This document shows positions 5,333 through 11,519 of a stretch of 12,090 bases of DNA, in pieces; within the stretch, counting starts at the first letter, position 1, and the number at the start of each line of letters is the position of its first letter. Source of the DNA: Anaerolinea sp. (GTDB lineage Bacteria > Chloroflexota > Anaerolineae > Anaerolineales > Anaerolineaceae). The stretch covers positions 1 through 12,090 of the forward strand of contig PNNU01000056.1 of assembly GCA_013824385.1 (NCBI GenBank), read 5' to 3'. Below the pieces are notes generated by a model, which worked only from the letters and a program-made list of their open reading frames with translations, was not told where the DNA came from and did not search any database. The position numbers were made by a program, and so were the translations under genes.

Positions 5333-5818
5333 TTACTCGGTATCCATTACAATTCGTGCCTGGTGTTCGCAGGTGGAAAAATTAAGGTTTTCGCCGCATT
5401 CGATACATAACCCCTGGCATTCCGGTTTGCAAATTGGTTTGATCGGACTTTCGACCAACAAGTACTCGCGAATGACCGGACTCAAATCTATATTGCCATC
5501 TTCAGGTACATATAATCCAGATTCAGTAAACGACCCTGATTTATATGCGTATACCTCATCAAACTCGGTAAAAAGTTGAAGATCAAATGGTTCAAGACAA
5601 CGTACGCATTCAGTTGGGGCAATGGCTTCAAATTTGCCCTCAAATAACAACCCTTGTGGCGTCCGTGAAATGTGAACGAGACCTGAAAACTGTTTTAGAT
5701 CAAGATCGGGTGGTAAATGGACTTCGGCGAACTCAAAATGGATGTCTCGATAACTTCCAACCGGTAAGTTGTGAAAGTAACCTACATTAATGCGTAATGG
5801 GTAACGTTGAATAGTCAA
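5333..5818 (-). CDS. DUF177 (YceD-like) cysteine-rich protein
   Basis: This 161-aa protein belongs to the DUF177/YceD family, small metal-binding proteins usually encoded next to rpmF (ribosomal protein L32) and linked in E. coli and plants to large-subunit rRNA accumulation. The family marks are the ECVRCLEPFDL block (Cys 71 and 74) and the C-terminal cluster CKPECQGLCIECGENLNFSTCEH with Cys 130, 134, 138, 141 and 150, which could bind zinc. The start is TTG: an in-frame TAA lies five codons upstream and no ATG or GTG occurs in the first residues, so TTG is the only reasonable choice, although no Shine-Dalgarno sequence precedes it. It is the first gene after a very strong promoter. The next gene is rpoD, not rpmF, and the 71-base gap leaves no room for L32. 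Family assignment is firm; the role here is inferred. Confidence 0.87.
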   Translation of the reverse strand: MTIQRYPLRINVGYFHNLPVGSYRDIHFEFAEVHLPPDLDLKQFSGLVHISRTPQGLLFEGKFEAIAPTECVRCLEPFDLQLFTEFDEVYAYKSGSFTESGLYVPEDGNIDLSPVIREYLLVESPIKPICKPECQGLCIECGENLNFSTCEHQARIVMDTE

Positions 5819-5857
5819 GGTGTCGGCCGTTTACAGGGATATAATTTCAACGTTCAG

Positions 5858-5886
5858 ATTATAGCATACCGAATTCTCGAAGTCAA
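5858..5886 (-). promoter_or_regulatory. Consensus sigma-70 promoter for DUF177-rpoD
   Basis: On the - strand, TTGACT (5886-5881) and TATAAT (5863-5858) are separated by exactly 17 bases. The -10 is preceded by TGC, an extended -10. The expected transcript start near 5851 gives a leader of about 32 bases before the TTG of the DUF177 gene. It is the best promoter in the window, in keeping with driving the primary sigma factor. Confidence 0.88.
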
Positions 5887-5927
5887 TTTTTTATGATATT
5901 ATTCATAAAAATTAAGGTTAAAAAACA

Positions 5928-6530
5928 ATGAAACTACTCATAGCAACGAATAACGACGGCAAGAAAAAAGAGATATCCGCTTTGTTTGAAGGTCTTCCAA
6001 TCGAACTGTGTTTTCCGGCGGACCTTGGCATTGACCAGGATGTTGACGAAACCGGTTCCACCTATGCCGAAAACGCGATACTTAAAGCGGAAACTCTCTG
6101 CCGTCTTTCAGGTCTTCTGACCCTGGCGGATGATACCGGCCTGGAGGTAATGGCGCTTGATAGCCGCCCCGGGCTGCATTCTGCGCGCTATGTACCCACC
6201 CCCGGCGCCACCGACGCGGATAGGCGCGCCAAACTGCTGACTGAGTTGGCCGATAAACAGGCACCATGGCTGGCGCGGTTCGTGTGTGTGGTGGCCGTCG
6301 CTGCCCCTGGCATGCCCACCCAATCTTTCGACGGTGAAGTGCAGGGCGAGATCATCACACGCGAAAGCGGAGAGTATGGCTTCGGTTATGACCGCCTCTT
6401 CTGGATTCCCCAGGTCAGCAAAACCCTGGCGGATTTACCCATGCCTGAAAAGAACCAGATCAGCCACCGTGCCATGGCAGTTAATAAAGCAATTAAATAT
6501 CTGATGAAGTACTCAGGTTATGCGGGTTGA
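5928..6530 (+). CDS. rdgB: XTP/dITP pyrophosphatase (RdgB/HAM1 family)
   Basis: This enzyme hydrolyses the non-canonical nucleotides dITP, ITP and XTP to monophosphates, keeping deaminated purines out of DNA and RNA. The 200-aa length is typical. Visible marks are ATNNDGKKKEI (6-16, the TxNxxK nucleotide loop), DVDETGSTYAENA (38-50), the metal-site LADDTGLEVMAL (66-77), PGLHSARY (81-88), FGYDRLF (152-158) and the purine-specificity motif SHRAMA (179-184). The ATG at 5928 has only a weak AAGG about ten bases upstream. It is divergent from DUF177-rpoD. Its last codons overlap a remnant of another gene on the - strand, so the extreme C-terminus (KYSGYAG) was once constrained in two frames. Confidence 0.94.
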   Translation: MKLLIATNNDGKKKEISALFEGLPIELCFPADLGIDQDVDETGSTYAENAILKAETLCRLSGLLTLADDTGLEVMALDSRPGLHSARYVPTPGATDADRRAKLLTELADKQAPWLARFVCVVAVAAPGMPTQSFDGEVQGEIITRESGEYGFGYDRLFWIPQVSKTLADLPMPEKNQISHRAMAVNKAIKYLMKYSGYAG

Positions 6531-6571
6531 AAATTCAATAATCGCAGCTTTTTACGTTCAGTTAGCAACTC
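6518..6571 (-). pseudogene. Remnant of the 3' end of a histidine-phosphatase gene
   Basis: Read on the - strand, 6559-6518 encodes ERKKLRLLNFQPA and a TAA stop. The intact phosphatase gene at 7866-7270 ends ERKKLRLLNFQPTH. The 12 shared residues are identical. Over those 36 bases (6524-6559 against 7279-7314) there are five differences, all synonymous third-codon positions. Homology fades upstream, although a Glu codon immediately before the GTAG of the left REP may still match, giving the outer limit of 6571. The stop lies inside the rdgB coding end, so the ancestral genes were convergent and overlapped by about 13 bases. Nothing else of the gene remains on this side. It is a broken copy, not expressed as a protein. 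Confidence 0.75.
6527..6559. repeat. Imperfect direct repeat, left copy (partner at 7282-7314)
   Basis: A 33-base stretch containing AAAATTCAATAA then CGCAG then CGTTC matches 7282-7314 at 29 of 33 positions by hand alignment. Its identity comes from the duplicated phosphatase 3' end rather than from a transposon target duplication. Confidence 0.8.
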
Positions 6572-6602
6572 GTAGGGTGCATCCCGCTTTATGGGATGCA
6601 CC
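6572..6602 (+). repeat. REP hairpin, left, with 5' GTAG
   Basis: GTAG (6572-6575) is followed directly by the perfect 10-bp inverted repeat GGTGCATCCC (6576-6585) / GGGATGCACC (6593-6602) with a 7-base loop. A GTAG-like tetranucleotide on the 5' side of a hairpin is the recognition layout known for RAYT transposases of the E. coli TnpA-REP type. It lies 29 bases before the RAYT start codon. Confidence 0.88.
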
Positions 6603-6614
6603 ATTAACTTAAAT

Positions 6615-6623
6615 TGATATAAA
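6615..6623 (+). promoter_or_regulatory. Possible extended -10 promoter of the transposase gene
   Basis: TGA followed by TATAAA fits TGnTATAAT with one mismatch. The expected transcript start near 6630 is two bases before the ATG, so the mRNA would be almost leaderless, which fits the absence of a ribosome site. The -35 position falls inside the left REP hairpin, with no good hexamer. Confidence 0.35.
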
Positions 6624-6631
6624 ATTTATTT

Positions 6632-7180
6632 ATGCCGAATTTCCATCGTTTCAGAGTGGAAGGTGGAATCTATTTCTTCACGGTTGTAACATATCATCGG
6701 CGCCCTTTTTTGGTGACACCATCCGCACGAAAAATATTGCATGACGCCTTCGAAATCGCTCAGGCGCGTTTTCCATTTGAGACCCTGGCTGTGTGCTTGC
6801 TGCCTGACCATCTGCATTGCATATGGAAATTACCCGCGGATGATTCCAATTATTCCATTCGTTGGAGGGTTATTAAAAACCTGTTTACCGTGCGTTATCT
6901 GAAAGAAGTTGGAATTGAAGAGCCACGAAATAGGTCGAGGATAAAAAGGCACGAAGCTGCTATTTGGCAGCGGCGTTTTTGGGAACATACTATCCTTGAC
7001 GAGGACGATTTTGAAGCTCATTTGGATTACATTCATTACAATCCAATCAAACATGGCTTGGTCGAACGGGCCGCAGATTGGAAATGGTCAAGTTTTCATA
7101 AATACGTACACGAAGGGCTCTATGATATTAACTGGGTTGGCGGGGATGAAGGGCGGATCCAGGGTTTTCCGATTGATTGA
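6632..7180 (+). CDS. REP-associated tyrosine transposase (RAYT, Y1/HUH family)
   Basis: This 182-aa protein belongs to the Y1 HUH single-strand transposases related to IS200/IS605 TnpA, in the subgroup that lives beside REP sequences. Visible are the N-terminal GGIYFFTVVTYHRRP (11-25), the HUH metal site CLLPDHLHCIW (55-65, His 60 and His 62), the RAYT hallmark WQRRFWEHTILDEDDFEAHL (112-131) and YIHYNPIKHGLV (133-144) with the probable nucleophile Tyr 133, ending ADWKWSSFHKY. It is full length with no frameshift or stop, so it could be active. The gene is flanked at 6572-6602 and 7202-7232 by two GTAG-hairpins in inverted orientation, the classic single-copy RAYT arrangement. There is no Shine-Dalgarno sequence. 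RAYTs usually stay single-copy and mobilise REPs in trans, so this may be a domesticated gene rather than an insertion sequence. Confidence 0.93.
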   Translation: MPNFHRFRVEGGIYFFTVVTYHRRPFLVTPSARKILHDAFEIAQARFPFETLAVCLLPDHLHCIWKLPADDSNYSIRWRVIKNLFTVRYLKEVGIEEPRNRSRIKRHEAAIWQRRFWEHTILDEDDFEAHLDYIHYNPIKHGLVERAADWKWSSFHKYVHEGLYDINWVGGDEGRIQGFPID

Positions 7181-7201
7181 TATGAAGGTTTTTATAATAT
7201 A

Positions 7202-7232
7202 GGTGCATCCCACCAAACGGGATGCACCCTAC
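7202..7232 (-). repeat. REP hairpin, right, inverted relative to the left copy
   Basis: Read on the - strand, GTAG (7232-7229) is followed by GGTGCATCCC (7228-7219), a 7-base loop and GGGATGCACC (7211-7202). The stem is identical to the left copy and only the loop differs. The outward-placed GTAG on both sides makes the pair an inverted repeat around the transposase gene, in a unit of 661 bases. Confidence 0.88.
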
Positions 7233-7269
7233 GAACTTACCTTTTTTCTATTTGATAACTGTTGATAGA

Positions 7270-7866
7270 TTAGTGTGTTGGCTGAAAATTCAATAAACGC
7301 AGTTTTTTGCGTTCTGGTGACCATTCCAGTATTGAAATGCTGGCAGGGTCAACGGTTATTCGATGAAAGAACTCTCGCGGAAGATTGATTCCTGCTGCAA
7401 TACCCAGGCGTAATATTTCGCAGTGTGCAAAACACACAATGTGGTCATCTGTTTGATATTTTTGACTTAATACATCCAAACCTGCAGATACCCGGGATTG
7501 TGCTTGTGCCGTGTTGTCTCCATTTGGAAATTGCACATCTGCTGGATGTTCATTAAACTGCTGCCAGATGGGGTTGGAAAACAATTCATCACCCATCCCT
7601 TGGAAATCTCCAAAATTGATTTCTCGTAAAAAGTCCTGCGGAATGACTTCGAGGTTAAGCGCTTTTGCCAGCGGTGCCGCGGTTTCACAGGCTCTCTCCA
7701 TCGGGCTGGAATAGATTGCTTTAATCGGGAAGCTACTCAAATAATCCGCAGCTTTTTGAGCCTGACCGCGCCCCTCTTCATTCAAATGAATTCCGGGCAG
7801 GTTGCCGCATAATTTCTTGCCGATGAAATCAGTTTTGCCATGTCTTACGAGATAGATAATTGCCAT
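7270..7866 (-). CDS. Histidine phosphatase family protein (phosphoglycerate-mutase-like)
   Basis: This 198-aa member of the branch 1 histidine phosphatases dephosphorylates its substrate through a phospho-histidine. The catalytic core is visible: YLVRHGKTD (5-13) with nucleophile His 9, the phosphate-binding Arg in YSSPMERACETA (52-63), the acid Glu in LREINFGDFQG (80-90), and the second His in FAHCEILRL (146-154), where SHG is more usual. Relatives include GpmB-like, CobC and broad-specificity phosphatases; the substrate cannot be told. TAAGGAGG at the end of rarA provides the ribosome site, four bases upstream of the ATG, with only 9 bases between the rarA stop and this start, so they are co-transcribed. 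Its 3' end is duplicated as a remnant beside rdgB, and the REP-RAYT unit lies immediately downstream. Confidence 0.9.
   Translation of the reverse strand: MAIIYLVRHGKTDFIGKKLCGNLPGIHLNEEGRGQAQKAADYLSSFPIKAIYSSPMERACETAAPLAKALNLEVIPQDFLREINFGDFQGMGDELFSNPIWQQFNEHPADVQFPNGDNTAQAQSRVSAGLDVLSQKYQTDDHIVCFAHCEILRLGIAAGINLPREFFHRITVDPASISILEWSPERKKLRLLNFQPTH
7282..7314. repeat. Imperfect direct repeat, right copy (partner at 6527-6559)
   Basis: This is the coding end of the intact histidine-phosphatase gene. The spacing to the left copy is 755 bases, enclosing the whole REP-RAYT-REP unit. Confidence 0.8.
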
Positions 7867-7875
7867 TACCCCTCC

Positions 7876-9240
7876 TTATTTTGGCGGCCCAGCTTTATCG
7901 GGTGCTTTCCCCAATGCTTGTTCCTGTGCAGTGCGCCAACGCGCCAGCCATTCGGACATCTGACCCTCATACCCCTGGTCGGAGGGTTCGTAGAAATGGG
8001 TGCCCAGCAACTTGGTTGGTAAATACTGCTGAGGAATGAAGTGGCCCTCAAACATGTGCGGATACTGGTAGCCCTTGCCGTGGCCAAACCCTTTGGCGTC
8101 GCGGTTTTTATCCATCAAATGAATGGGCACATCCCCGCTGCCTTGGGTTTCGATACTTTCTCGGGCCTTAAAGAAGGCGCCCGCCGAGTTGGATTTTGGC
8201 GCAGTGGCCAGAAATAACGTCGCTTCCACAATCGGATAAATGCCCTCGGGCATACCGATATATTCGTATGCATACGCCGCCGCAGAGGCAACCTGAATGC
8301 CGCGCGGGTCCGCCAGACCAATGTCTTCTCCGGCCAGCACGATCAAGCGTCTCAAAATAAAACGCGGATCCTCACCGGCCAGGATCATCTTGGCCAGCCA
8401 GTAGAGCGCCGCGTCAGGGTCCGAGCCGCGGACAGACTTAATGAAAGCCGAAATGGTATCGTAGTGTGCGTCGCCCATGCGGTCGTAGAGCAGTGCCCGC
8501 CGTTGAATGGATTCCTGCGCCACATCAAGGGTGATGTGGGTGCTGCCGTCCGCTTCTGGGGGCGTGCTTTCCACGGCCAGTTCTATTGCGTTGAGCAGGT
8601 TGCGCGCATCCCCGCCTGCCATGTGGATCAGGTGTTCGCGGGCGTCATCGTCAAATTGGATCATGCGCTTGCCGTAGCCGACTTCCTGGTCTGTCAGCGC
8701 ACGAGTGAGGATGATGTTCATGTGCTCTGGAGTGAGCGCTTCAAGTAGAAAAATGCGTGATCGTGAGACCAGCGCGGGGATGACGTCAAAGTAAGGGTTT
8801 TCGGTGGTGGCGCTGATCAGGGTGATCATGCCGGTTTCGACATGCGGCAGCAGCGCGTCTTGCTGGGCTTTATTCCAGCGGTGCACCTCATCCACAAACA
8901 GAATCGTGCGTCTGCGGTAGAGTTTGCGCCGGTCGGTGGCTTCGGTGATCACGCGGCGCAGTTCAGCCACACCGGCCAGCACTGCCGAGAGACTCTCAAA
9001 ATGTGCCTGGGTGTGGGCTGCGATTAAACGAGCCAGGGTGGTCTTGCCCGTGCCTGGAGGACCTGTGAAAATGATCGAAGAAAACAGCCGGTCCGCGGTA
9101 ATGGCGCGGCGCAGCAGCTTGCCTTCGCCGATGATGTGCTCCTGGCCGACGAATTCATCCAGCGTGCGCGGACGCAGCCGCGCAGCCAGCGGACCTTCAC
9201 TGGCAAGGTTTTCATTCATCGCATGTTCAAATAAATCCAT
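7876..9240 (-). CDS. rarA: Replication-associated recombination protein RarA (MgsA), AAA+ ATPase
   Basis: This is a clamp-loader-like AAA+ ATPase that acts at stalled replication forks (MgsA/RarA in bacteria, WRNIP1 in eukaryotes). The 454-aa length is normal. Visible are [15 protein letters not shown] (21-35), Walker A GPPGTGKT (60-67), Walker [21 protein letters not shown] (113-132), sensor 1 SATTENP (143-149), the arginine finger in ALVSRSRIF (156-164) and sensor 2 GGDARNLLN. The C-terminal oligomerisation domain has [41 protein letters not shown] and GYQYPH, all family hallmarks. Trp replaces the more usual Phe in [10 protein letters not shown]. The ATG at 9240 has no clear Shine-Dalgarno sequence, but an extended -10 ends six bases before it, so the mRNA may be leaderless. 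Met 8 is an alternative start, also without a ribosome site. It is followed 9 bases later by the histidine phosphatase. Confidence 0.95.
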
Positions 9241-9246
9241 CCCATA

Positions 9247-9255
9247 ATTGTAGCA
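9247..9255 (-). promoter_or_regulatory. Extended -10 promoter of rarA, possibly giving a leaderless mRNA
   Basis: On the - strand TGC (9255-9253) precedes TACAAT (9252-9247), a five-of-six -10 with the extended TGn. Transcription would start about seven bases on, at the A of the rarA ATG (9240). No good -35 hexamer is visible. Confidence 0.45.
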
Positions 9256-9258
9256 TAA

Positions 9259-9288
9259 ATGATATAATTAGGACATATTTCCTATAAT
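9259..9288 (+). promoter_or_regulatory. Probable promoter of the DUF5680-phzF-pfkB-esterase operon
   Basis: A perfect -10 TATAAT (9283-9288) lies 18 bases after ATGATA (9259-9264), a four-of-six match to TTGACA. The imperfect palindrome TAGGA-N6-TCCTA (9269-9284) runs through the spacer into the -10 and could be an operator. The leader to the ATG at 9334 would be about 39 bases. Confidence 0.45.
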
Positions 9289-9333
9289 GTTTATTGTGTT
9301 TTCGATCACTCATTTTCTTTCTAAGAGGGCCGT

Positions 9334-9789
9334 ATGTTATCAAAAGATTTCGTTTCATTCCTGATCCGCGCCAAGCAGAACACTTATGCTTCAGGCAAGC
9401 CGGCTGACCAGACCTCGCGCCCGGCATCGCACGACATGCAATATGAAGAAAAGCCTTACCTCTACATTGATTCCTGGTTGGGTGGTTTCCATTTTATTGG
9501 AGAAGAGGCCGTTTGGCACAAAGGTGCTGCGGTTTGGGGGATGAATTATTACGGCAAAATGTTGACTGAGCATGTGCCAGATGGTTTCAGTCATTTTTTG
9601 AAAGCATCACTCCTCAATGCTCCGGCAGATGCTCCATATCGCGGACCATCAGTTTATATTGAAGACGATTTCGAGTATCATTGTTCCTGGAGGGGCACAC
9701 TCACCTCGTTTGAAGGCGAAGAAGCCATCTCCTACAAAAAACAGGTCATCTACCGCCTAAGCTTCCACGGTGGTGAAATTCGCGAATAG
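9334..9789 (+). CDS. DUF5680 domain-containing protein
   Basis: This 151-aa protein resembles the DUF5680 family, a domain of unknown function sometimes found attached to XRE-type regulators but here on its own. The recognisable core is FLIRAKQNTYASG (9-21), the YLYIDSWLGGFHFIGEEAVW segment (42-61) and PVWGMNYYG-like AAVWGMNYYGKML (65-77), followed by a C-terminal part rich in aromatic residues and charge (YIEDDFEYHCSWRGTLTSFEGEE). No signal peptide, membrane segment or helix-turn-helix is seen, so it is probably a small cytoplasmic protein. AGAGG five bases before the ATG supports the start. It leads an operon, 18 bases upstream of the PhzF gene. The function is unknown; the family call is from memory of the motif. 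Confidence 0.78.
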   Translation: MLSKDFVSFLIRAKQNTYASGKPADQTSRPASHDMQYEEKPYLYIDSWLGGFHFIGEEAVWHKGAAVWGMNYYGKMLTEHVPDGFSHFLKASLLNAPADAPYRGPSVYIEDDFEYHCSWRGTLTSFEGEEAISYKKQVIYRLSFHGGEIRE

Positions 9790-9807
9790 ACTTAAAAGGA
9801 GCGGATT

Positions 9808-10596
9808 ATGTCAACTCCCTTATTTCAAGTAGACGCTTTTACTGACAAACTTTTTGCAGGCAACCCGGCGGCTGTTGTAGTATTGGAAGAGCAGCAAGAA
9901 GCCGCCTGGATGCAGGCTGTGGCGCGTGAGATGAACCTGTCTGAAACCGCCTTCGTCCACCCACAGCAGGGTGGCTTTCACCTGCAGTGGTTCACACCGC
10001 AGGTTGAAATTGACTTATGCGGGCACGCCACCCTGGCTACCGCGCATATCCTCTGGCAAACCGGGCTGATGCAAGACGAAGAAACAATCCGCTTCTTCAC
10101 GCGCTCGGGCTGGCTGGCGGCCTCGCGCAAAGACGGCCTCATTGAAATGGATTTCCCCTCCTCGCCTTTGGTGCCTTCAGATATTTCGGACGAGATTATC
10201 AATGCTGTGGGAGCTCGTCCCGATTTTACGGGCATCAGCGGCGAAAAATGGCTCTTCGAATATTCTGATGAGCGCACTATCCACAGTCTAAAACCCGATT
10301 TCTCTGCATTGAAACTGCGCAAGGGCAGGGCTTTGGCAGTCACCGCTCGATCAGACACCCCGGGCATTGATTTCGTTTCACGCTATTTCGCACCCTGGAT
10401 CGGAATTGACGAAGACCCTGTCACTGGATCTGCACATTGCATCCTCGGCCCTTATTGGTCGCGCAAACTGGGCAAGAATTACATGACCGCCTATCAAGCC
10501 TCAGCCCGCGGTGGAATCGTGCATGTTCGTATGAGCGGAGACCGCACTTACGTGGGCGGCAAGGCTGTCACTGTTTTTTCCGGGGAATTAAAATGA
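9808..10596 (+). CDS. PhzF family isomerase-like protein
   Basis: This 262-aa protein has the two-domain diaminopimelate-epimerase-like fold of the PhzF family, named for the phenazine isomerase but mostly of unknown substrate. Family marks are VDAFTDKLFAGNPAAVV (8-24), NLSETAFV (43-50) with the catalytic Glu 46, GHATLATAH (72-80), DEDPVTGSAH (201-210) with the conserved Asp, and RGGIVHVRM (234-242). AAAGGAG six bases before the ATG sets the start. No other phenazine genes are present, so phenazine synthesis is unlikely. Its TGA overlaps the ATG of the next gene (ATGA), so the two are translationally coupled, which may mean linked metabolic steps. Confidence 0.93.
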   Translation: MSTPLFQVDAFTDKLFAGNPAAVVVLEEQQEAAWMQAVAREMNLSETAFVHPQQGGFHLQWFTPQVEIDLCGHATLATAHILWQTGLMQDEETIRFFTRSGWLAASRKDGLIEMDFPSSPLVPSDISDEIINAVGARPDFTGISGEKWLFEYSDERTIHSLKPDFSALKLRKGRALAVTARSDTPGIDFVSRYFAPWIGIDEDPVTGSAHCILGPYWSRKLGKNYMTAYQASARGGIVHVRMSGDRTYVGGKAVTVFSGELK

Positions 10597-11519
10597 TGGA
10601 ACGAGATAGGTCTTTAACTAAATTCGATGTGGTAGTGGTTGGAAACGTTGGTATAGACACAAATGTTTTCTTTCAATCCAACGATATTGATTTTTCAGTG
10701 GAAGCGAATTTTACAGAAAATATTGATGTACTTGGCCAGGCTGGCGGTTATGCCAGCCGCGGATACGCCAGATTGGGAGCATCCACATCCTTCATCGGCT
10801 GTGTGGGTGCAGATTATTCCGGTAAATATATAAAGAGCGTGTTCGAAAATGAAGGCATCAACACAGACGGATTTTTCATTGATCCCCAAGGCACCAGTCG
10901 AAGCATAAATTTCATGTACCGCAATGGGCAGCGAAAAAACTTCTATGATGGCAAAAGTCATATGAAAATGCATGCCCCGTTGGAAGCGGCTGCCACTATT
11001 CTAAATGGCGTACGGTTGGCGCATTTCAATATCCCCAATTGGGCGCGAGAAGTGTTGCCCATTGCGAAAAGTGTTGGAGCGATGATTGCCTGTGATATTC
11101 AAGACGTGATCTCTGTTGATGACCCATATCGCCTGGATTTTGTAAAATACGCTGATTTTCTCTTCTTTTCTTCGGCAAATCATGCTGATCCAACCCCATT
11201 GATTCAATCCTACCTGAACATGAATCCGGCTTTAGTGATTGTCTCAGGCATGGGTGATCGAGGCTGTGCGTTGGGGACAAACTCGGGGGTCCAGTTCTTT
11301 CATCCGGTCAATATGGATTTGCCTGTCGTGGATACCAATGGAGCTGGCGACGCACTGGCCGTTGGATTTTTAACCAGCCGTGTATTGGAAGGGCGTTCGC
11401 TTGAGGAATCGATCCAACGGGGACAAATTTCTGCCAGATACAAGTGTGCTCAGAGAGCAACTTCCAATTGCATGATCACCAAAAACTTGCTTGATCATTA
11501 CCAACAAGAGTCTCGATGA
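10593..11519 (+). CDS. PfkB-family carbohydrate/nucleoside kinase
   Basis: This 308-aa protein has the ribokinase-like fold of the PfkB family, which transfers phosphate from ATP to a sugar or nucleoside hydroxyl. FDVVVVGNVGIDTN (11-24) is the first strand. The substrate block GQAGGYASRGYARLGASTSF (48-67) and GCVGAD (69-74) correspond to PfkB signature 1, with Ser where Asn is common. Signature 2 is DTNGAGDALAVGFL (247-260) with the anion hole and the catalytic base Asp 253. The open frame extends back to 10437 inside phzF, but those residues are out-of-frame phzF sequence. The ATG at 10593 (or the adjacent one at 10596) is chosen because it overlaps the phzF stop as ATGA, follows GGGGA, and places the first strand correctly. 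It ends in an ATGA overlap with the esterase gene. The substrate is unknown. Confidence 0.92.
   Translation: MMERDRSLTKFDVVVVGNVGIDTNVFFQSNDIDFSVEANFTENIDVLGQAGGYASRGYARLGASTSFIGCVGADYSGKYIKSVFENEGINTDGFFIDPQGTSRSINFMYRNGQRKNFYDGKSHMKMHAPLEAAATILNGVRLAHFNIPNWAREVLPIAKSVGAMIACDIQDVISVDDPYRLDFVKYADFLFFSSANHADPTPLIQSYLNMNPALVIVSGMGDRGCALGTNSGVQFFHPVNMDLPVVDTNGAGDALAVGFLTSRVLEGRSLEESIQRGQISARYKCAQRATSNCMITKNLLDHYQQESR

Follow-up and report, generated by a model that had tools for sequence, protein, structure and literature searches.

Two diverged copies of a histidine phosphatase gene end on either side of a REP-RAYT unit in Anaerolinea sp.: a possible scar of recombination

INTRODUCTION

Displacement of the C-terminal part of a gene has been described at rhs loci, where the exchanged tips are non-homologous and circular intermediates have been proposed (PMC2935791). 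Homology-facilitated illegitimate recombination is a further described process (PMC3240628). REP palindromes tagged with GTAG have been reported in the Chloroflexi, and in the two species examined in the same source most of those lying between convergent genes are at most 20 bp from both 3' ends (PMC3733652).

The locus described here lies in a single metagenome contig of Anaerolinea sp., analysed as one stretch of 12,090 nucleotides (the window). As in the described REP-RAYT units with GTAG-tagged REPs (PMC3733652; PMC2817692), a RAYT gene is situated between inverted palindromes near convergent 3' ends. The unit sits between two copies of the end of a histidine phosphatase gene, and how this arrangement arose is considered below.

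RESULTS AND DISCUSSION

Organization of the locus

The gene order of the window includes mutM, an rpoD-type sigma factor gene, yceD, rdgB, the RAYT gene, the histidine phosphatase gene and rarA; the names mutM and rpoD are presumptive, having been assigned by reading the translations rather than by family search. The closest rarA relatives (best 80 of 583) belong to the Anaerolineaceae (Chloroflexota). The intact rdgB, which encodes a Ham1 family pyrophosphatase (5928..6530, plus strand; PF01725, E 1.5e-53), is convergent with an intact phosphatase gene of 198 codons (7270..7866, minus strand; PF00300, E 5.4e-47), itself flanked by rarA (7876..9240, minus strand), which is 96–97% identical to that of four relatives in the genus. 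The rdgB product ends in SGYAG (6513–6530) and is longer than the usual 194–195 residues; similar extensions, ending in QAGM, occur in P0136 and P0146, two proteins among the relatives listed.

Next to rdgB is an orphan phosphatase end (6518..6559, minus strand), consisting of 12 codons (6524–6559), one further codon and a stop (6518–6520). It is separated by 12 bases (6560..6571), without clear match to the phosphatase ends of relatives, from the left GTAG-tagged REP palindrome (6572..6602). The RAYT gene follows as an open frame of 182 codons (6632..7180, plus strand; Pfam Y1_Tnp) and fits the family model NF047646 with 182.1 bits against a cut-off of 80. The right REP palindrome (7202..7232) is inverted relative to the left, with 44-nt arms that are 82% complementary, and both fold as hairpins (z -5.5 for region 6570–6613 and -6.0 for 7191–7234). 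An Rfam search of 6400–7400 gave no match. A strict REP pattern was found as one copy each in two of 16 genomes of the genus, a pattern too strict to indicate copy number. A 37-base flank (7233..7269) joins the right REP to the phosphatase stop codon. That this flank is the remnant of a donor rdgB end is not claimed, the likeness being weak: amongst six targets the only notable match, of 10 bases, was to L001 (p 0.047 for the best score, 0.065 for the sum).

The two phosphatase ends

The two ends form a direct repeat (6525–6559 and 7280–7314) with a spacing of 755 and 89% identity over 35 nt, and the minus strand of both reads ERKKLRLLNFQP, the right copy forming part of the intact gene (7279–7314, minus strand). 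The first-pass annotation had noted that these same 12 C-terminal residues are encoded twice, 755 bases apart, with five differences in 36 bases that are all synonymous, and this is confirmed; the codons concerned (right/left) are CGC/CGT, AAA/AAG, CGT/CGA, CAG/CAA and CCA/CCC. As 23 of the 108 possible single changes in the stretch are synonymous, the chance that five random changes are all silent is ~4e-4. This naive value overstates the case, since one of the copies still functions as a gene and its changes are filtered anyway. It had been argued from this pattern that both copies were functional for a long time. The all-silent differences are suggestive of this but, because one copy remains under selection, do not prove it; the truncated copy is the only one free to change without selection. 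Beyond the 12 residues the copies diverge, the left continuing with A and a stop and the right with T, H and a stop.

The stop codon of the left copy and that of rdgB (6528–6530) give a convergent overlap of 13 nt. In relatives, the 3' ends of phosphatase and rdgB overlap by 4 nt (L001), 6 nt (L002) or 43 nt (L004), or are separated by 2 nt (L027). Its overlap with the rdgB stop marks the left copy, by position, as native. Unlike position, the sequence of empty sites does not identify the native copy: the end in L001 (genome G001) differs from the right copy at five positions and from the left at seven, and that in L027 (genome G002) at eight and seven. Within the same 35 nt, the two ends of the window differ from each other at four positions, while the left differs from those of G001, G010, G002 and G015 at 7, 4, 7 and 11 and the right at 5, 5, 8 and 12. 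The distance between the window ends is therefore about that found between ends from different species within the genus.

Empty and occupied sites in relatives

The rarA loci of the best 80 of 583 relatives were scanned, with RAYT matches accepted at E up to 1e-5. In five of the 80 (L001, L002, L004, L005 and L027) the phosphatase gene directly adjoins rdgB, without an intervening RAYT match, so that RAYT-free relatives with one phosphatase end beside rdgB, as had been predicted, do exist. The phosphatase reads through intact in four of these five. In L005, the gene adjoining rarA (5482–6069) has an internal stop.

In G010, the phosphatase stop is followed directly by a unit 87.7% identical to that of the window, with a damaged RAYT, then by a REP and the end of rdgB; the bases that separate the unit from rdgB showed nothing similar to a second phosphatase end. 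This unit accompanies a single phosphatase end, and insertion alone therefore does not double the end, in agreement with the earlier suggestion that the arrangement in the window is more than a simple transposition. At the same junction in G015 the unit is a shortened remnant, and a test for a decayed phosphatase end beside it was negative (p 0.45 to 0.74).

In addition to the damaged RAYT copies at the phosphatase–rdgB junction of G010 and G015, intact copies occur elsewhere in these genomes (L124 6690–7237; L154; L155; L156), with 92, 88 and 86% identity to that of the window. Shared ancestry of the units found at this locus was considered and dropped, as the two copies in G010 have 92.9% identity to one another and less to that of the window (87.7 and 87.9%); where testable, RAYT copies did not group by locus. 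Amongst the matches listed, RAYTs 90 and 89% identical to that of the window appear, from matching contig size, to lie together with phosphatases of this kind on contigs of 4030 and 8521 bases, and in the first case with an rdgB as well. Repeated landing of the unit at this junction is plausible, given how near to both 3' ends most REPs between convergent genes are in the two species described (PMC3733652). A distant RAYT (29% identity; L020 9510–10004) lies between rarA (8001–9329) and phosphatase (10148–10744) in another Anaerolineae bacterium.

Types and mosaicism of the phosphatases

Phosphatase proteins were taken as the best 120 of 1317 relatives, of which the first 62 were sorted. Amongst the relatives listed, five contigs each seem to hold a pair of phosphatases, one of a type X and one of a type Y, the pairing being read from equal size and source of the contig records. 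The types were set by eye from these five contigs and the chimera set was chosen after the diagnostic sites had been seen; counts on the X, Y and chimera groups are descriptive. The single genes of L001 and L027, together with 12 listed proteins (some of which may be the same genes), have an X-like start and a Y-like continuation. The right end of the window gene was at first read as Y-like, but conversion of a Y-type tail onto an X gene was dropped because P0028 and P0046 end similarly (LEWSKERKKLRLLNFQP and LEWSNERKKLRLLNLQPE, respectively), and such an end may be ancestral.

Comparison of the 62 phosphatases (1891 pairs, including the window's own protein, which is present in seven of the 14 pairs listed) gave 67 pairs with at least 90% identity over the first 60 residues; from residue 101 onwards, 21 of these are at or below 65% identity and 32 at or below 75%. 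By the same measure, 62 rdgB proteins gave 107 pairs, with none at or below 65% and four at or below 75%. Part of this contrast is expected, because the rdgB proteins vary less (median identity of pairs 0.72 versus 0.55) and the pairs are non-independent. In a tree of rdgB (60 rows, many forks open), genomes with two phosphatase genes and with one are interleaved. Together with the mosaic pairs, this pattern is consistent with the locus having changed or been exchanged repeatedly.

P0020 is a further mosaic phosphatase, with 97% identity to the Y-type P0036 over residues 1–60 and 94% to chimeric genes near the end. In the more distant relative L013, tandem phosphatases (9377–9961 and 10050–10628; 43 and 40% identity) follow rarA; doubling of the phosphatase here may therefore have happened more than once.

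A break in divergence within the phosphatase gene

The window phosphatase is 63% identical to those of L001 and L027, while the other genes compared with these two loci reach 97% (rarA), 91% (yceD), 95% (sigma factor) and 87% and 81% (rdgB). The divergence is unevenly distributed. At sites invariant in the five closest X-type relatives, the window gene agrees at 74 of 76 in codons 1–100, which are X-type (7567–7866, minus strand), and at 37 of 58 afterwards. When the X members were left out in turn, the corresponding values for the later part were 58/60, 58/62, 58/58, 58/59 and 58/68, and nine proteins of other types agreed at 0.66 to 0.76 of the later X-invariant sites. The best break falls after residue 116 and was reached by none of 20000 permutations; mismatches begin in the bin of residues 81–100, and the zone is placed at about residues 93–116 (7519..7590, minus strand), with an approximate lower bound. 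The best identity amongst the 119 relatives listed falls from 97% (residues 1–60) to 88% (61–100) and 57% (101–165), and GC3 is 50 in the first part and 32 in the second, compared with 37–56 and 38–51 in relatives.

In a tree of codons 62–165, the nearest rows to the window by path are X. In a tree of codons 101–198, a clade of the window with X is not rejected (p-AU 0.518), and with respect to the chimeric genes the window falls on the side of X (support 92), although its end branch lengthens from 0.047 to 0.65 and the sequence it matches best is a chimeric gene, at 59% identity. The argument that the trees show a foreign 3' half was dropped, as neither tree forces foreign origin. Fast local evolution, or descent from an unsampled X relative, would fit both trees as well.

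Origin of the doubled end

The explanation we prefer, tentatively and at somewhat less than an even chance, is that the locus carries a scar of recombination, in which a diverged 3' half, together with the REP-RAYT unit, displaced that of the host and left the last codons of the latter as an orphan. The phosphatase would have kept its first ~100 codons, and the 3' half of a diverged homologue would have come in with the REP-RAYT unit just past its stop, the incoming piece extending from about 6572 to 7519–7590. Such a piece could have been joined on one side by a homologous crossover inside the phosphatase gene. The other junction, at the unit's outer edge, might have formed with no homology, in the manner of homology-facilitated illegitimate recombination, or by a crossover with a copy of the unit already lodged in the end of the resident phosphatase. 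In either case the last codons and stop of the resident gene would be stranded beside rdgB. The foreign origin of the 3' half, its arrival with the unit, the single event and the type of the left junction are proposed steps of this scheme, whereas the two ends, the native place of the left one, the unit with a single end in G010 and the break in divergence are observed. Against the scheme are the trees, the 12 bases of the left junction, the lack of a firm donor rdgB signal in the right flank and the failure of RAYT copies to group by locus where testable; no donor sequence for the 3' half was found amongst the relatives listed.

Recombination between diverged homologues had been put forward in the first-pass annotation. 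The species-level distance between the ends, the RAYT-free relatives with one end, the undoubled end in G010 and the sharp break in divergence speak for it, while the trees, in which X kinship is not rejected, do not. What connects the proposed gene replacement with the REP-RAYT unit is their position.

Collapse of a tandem pair of paralogues, also raised earlier, is the next candidate, and we regard it as unlikely though clearly the strongest of the rivals. An ancestor with the order rarA–X–Y–rdgB would have lost Y except for its last 12 codons and stop, the REP-RAYT unit now standing in its place, and the intact gene would be X, its later part fast-evolving or separately changed. This would account both for where the left end lies and for the X-type beginning of the window gene, whose later part is likewise not rejected as X kin. 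All five X proteins on the contigs with apparent pairs are accompanied by Y, the single genes of L001 and L027, X-like and then Y-like, suggest an X-then-Y order with Y beside rdgB, and the Y protein P0039 ends in NFQPA, like the left copy. However, the later half of the window gene is unlike X, and a tandem collapse therefore needs a further event. Judged by length, none of the five two-phosphatase contigs is amongst the 120 RAYT matches listed of 6566, and the pairing of X and Y is known from protein records, in which gene order within the contigs is not visible.

Misassembly is improbable. The contig would join two species at the repeated unit, which would lie within the phosphatase end of one and close to the phosphatase of the other. 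The window proteins are known from this one metagenome contig (12,090 bases), and misjoins are likely at repeated elements; RAYTs 86–92% identical occur elsewhere in G010 and G015, so that the element is repeated across the genus. On the other hand, the same genes are found on both sides in relatives with similar identity, GC3 on both sides follows that of relatives, and the break inside the phosphatase would require a second misjoin.

A long target duplication at insertion of the unit, followed by random decay, would produce a direct repeat around a mobile unit but is very improbable, given that the IS200/IS605 family is described as making no larger target duplications (PMC2817692), that the G010 unit lies here without a doubled end, and that all five differences are silent while the residues past the 12 codons differ.

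Comparison with known systems

A recombination scar of the preferred kind is uncommon but explicable. If it is one, gene-end displacement, described for toxin and effector loci, reaches an ordinary metabolic gene, tied here to a REP-RAYT unit, and short orphan gene ends beside REPs would be searchable marks of past gene exchange. A wider hint is that the phosphatase is often mosaic, whereas by the simple measure used the adjacent rdgB is not. A bolder and rather improbable reading is that REP-RAYT units, where they sit between convergent genes, serve as portable handles for recombination, driving gene mosaicism instead of riding along, with short orphan ends left as scars; units lodged at somewhat different sites might then cross over with one another, or their hairpins might break, and 3' parts of neighbouring genes would repeatedly be swapped between species.

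As in the rhs displacement described (PMC2935791), the first part of the gene is constant, the last part may have been exchanged and an older end lies silent downstream, here on the same strand (6518–6559, minus) and beside rdgB. In the rhs loci of that account the tips are non-homologous, whereas here the old and new ends are homologous, both reading ERKKLRLLNFQP; in addition, the orphan amounts to 12 codons of an ordinary phosphatase gene, and the two ends are separated by a REP-RAYT unit. The displacement reported for Vibrio effectors, akin to homology-facilitated illegitimate recombination (PMC5361080), has one homologous anchor, one non-homologous junction and older sequence pushed downstream; here, the break zone is inside the gene and neither junction is demonstrably of that kind. 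Unlike the REP-RAYT units described in the sources cited (PMC3733652; PMC2817692), the unit of the window is flanked by two diverged copies of one gene end.
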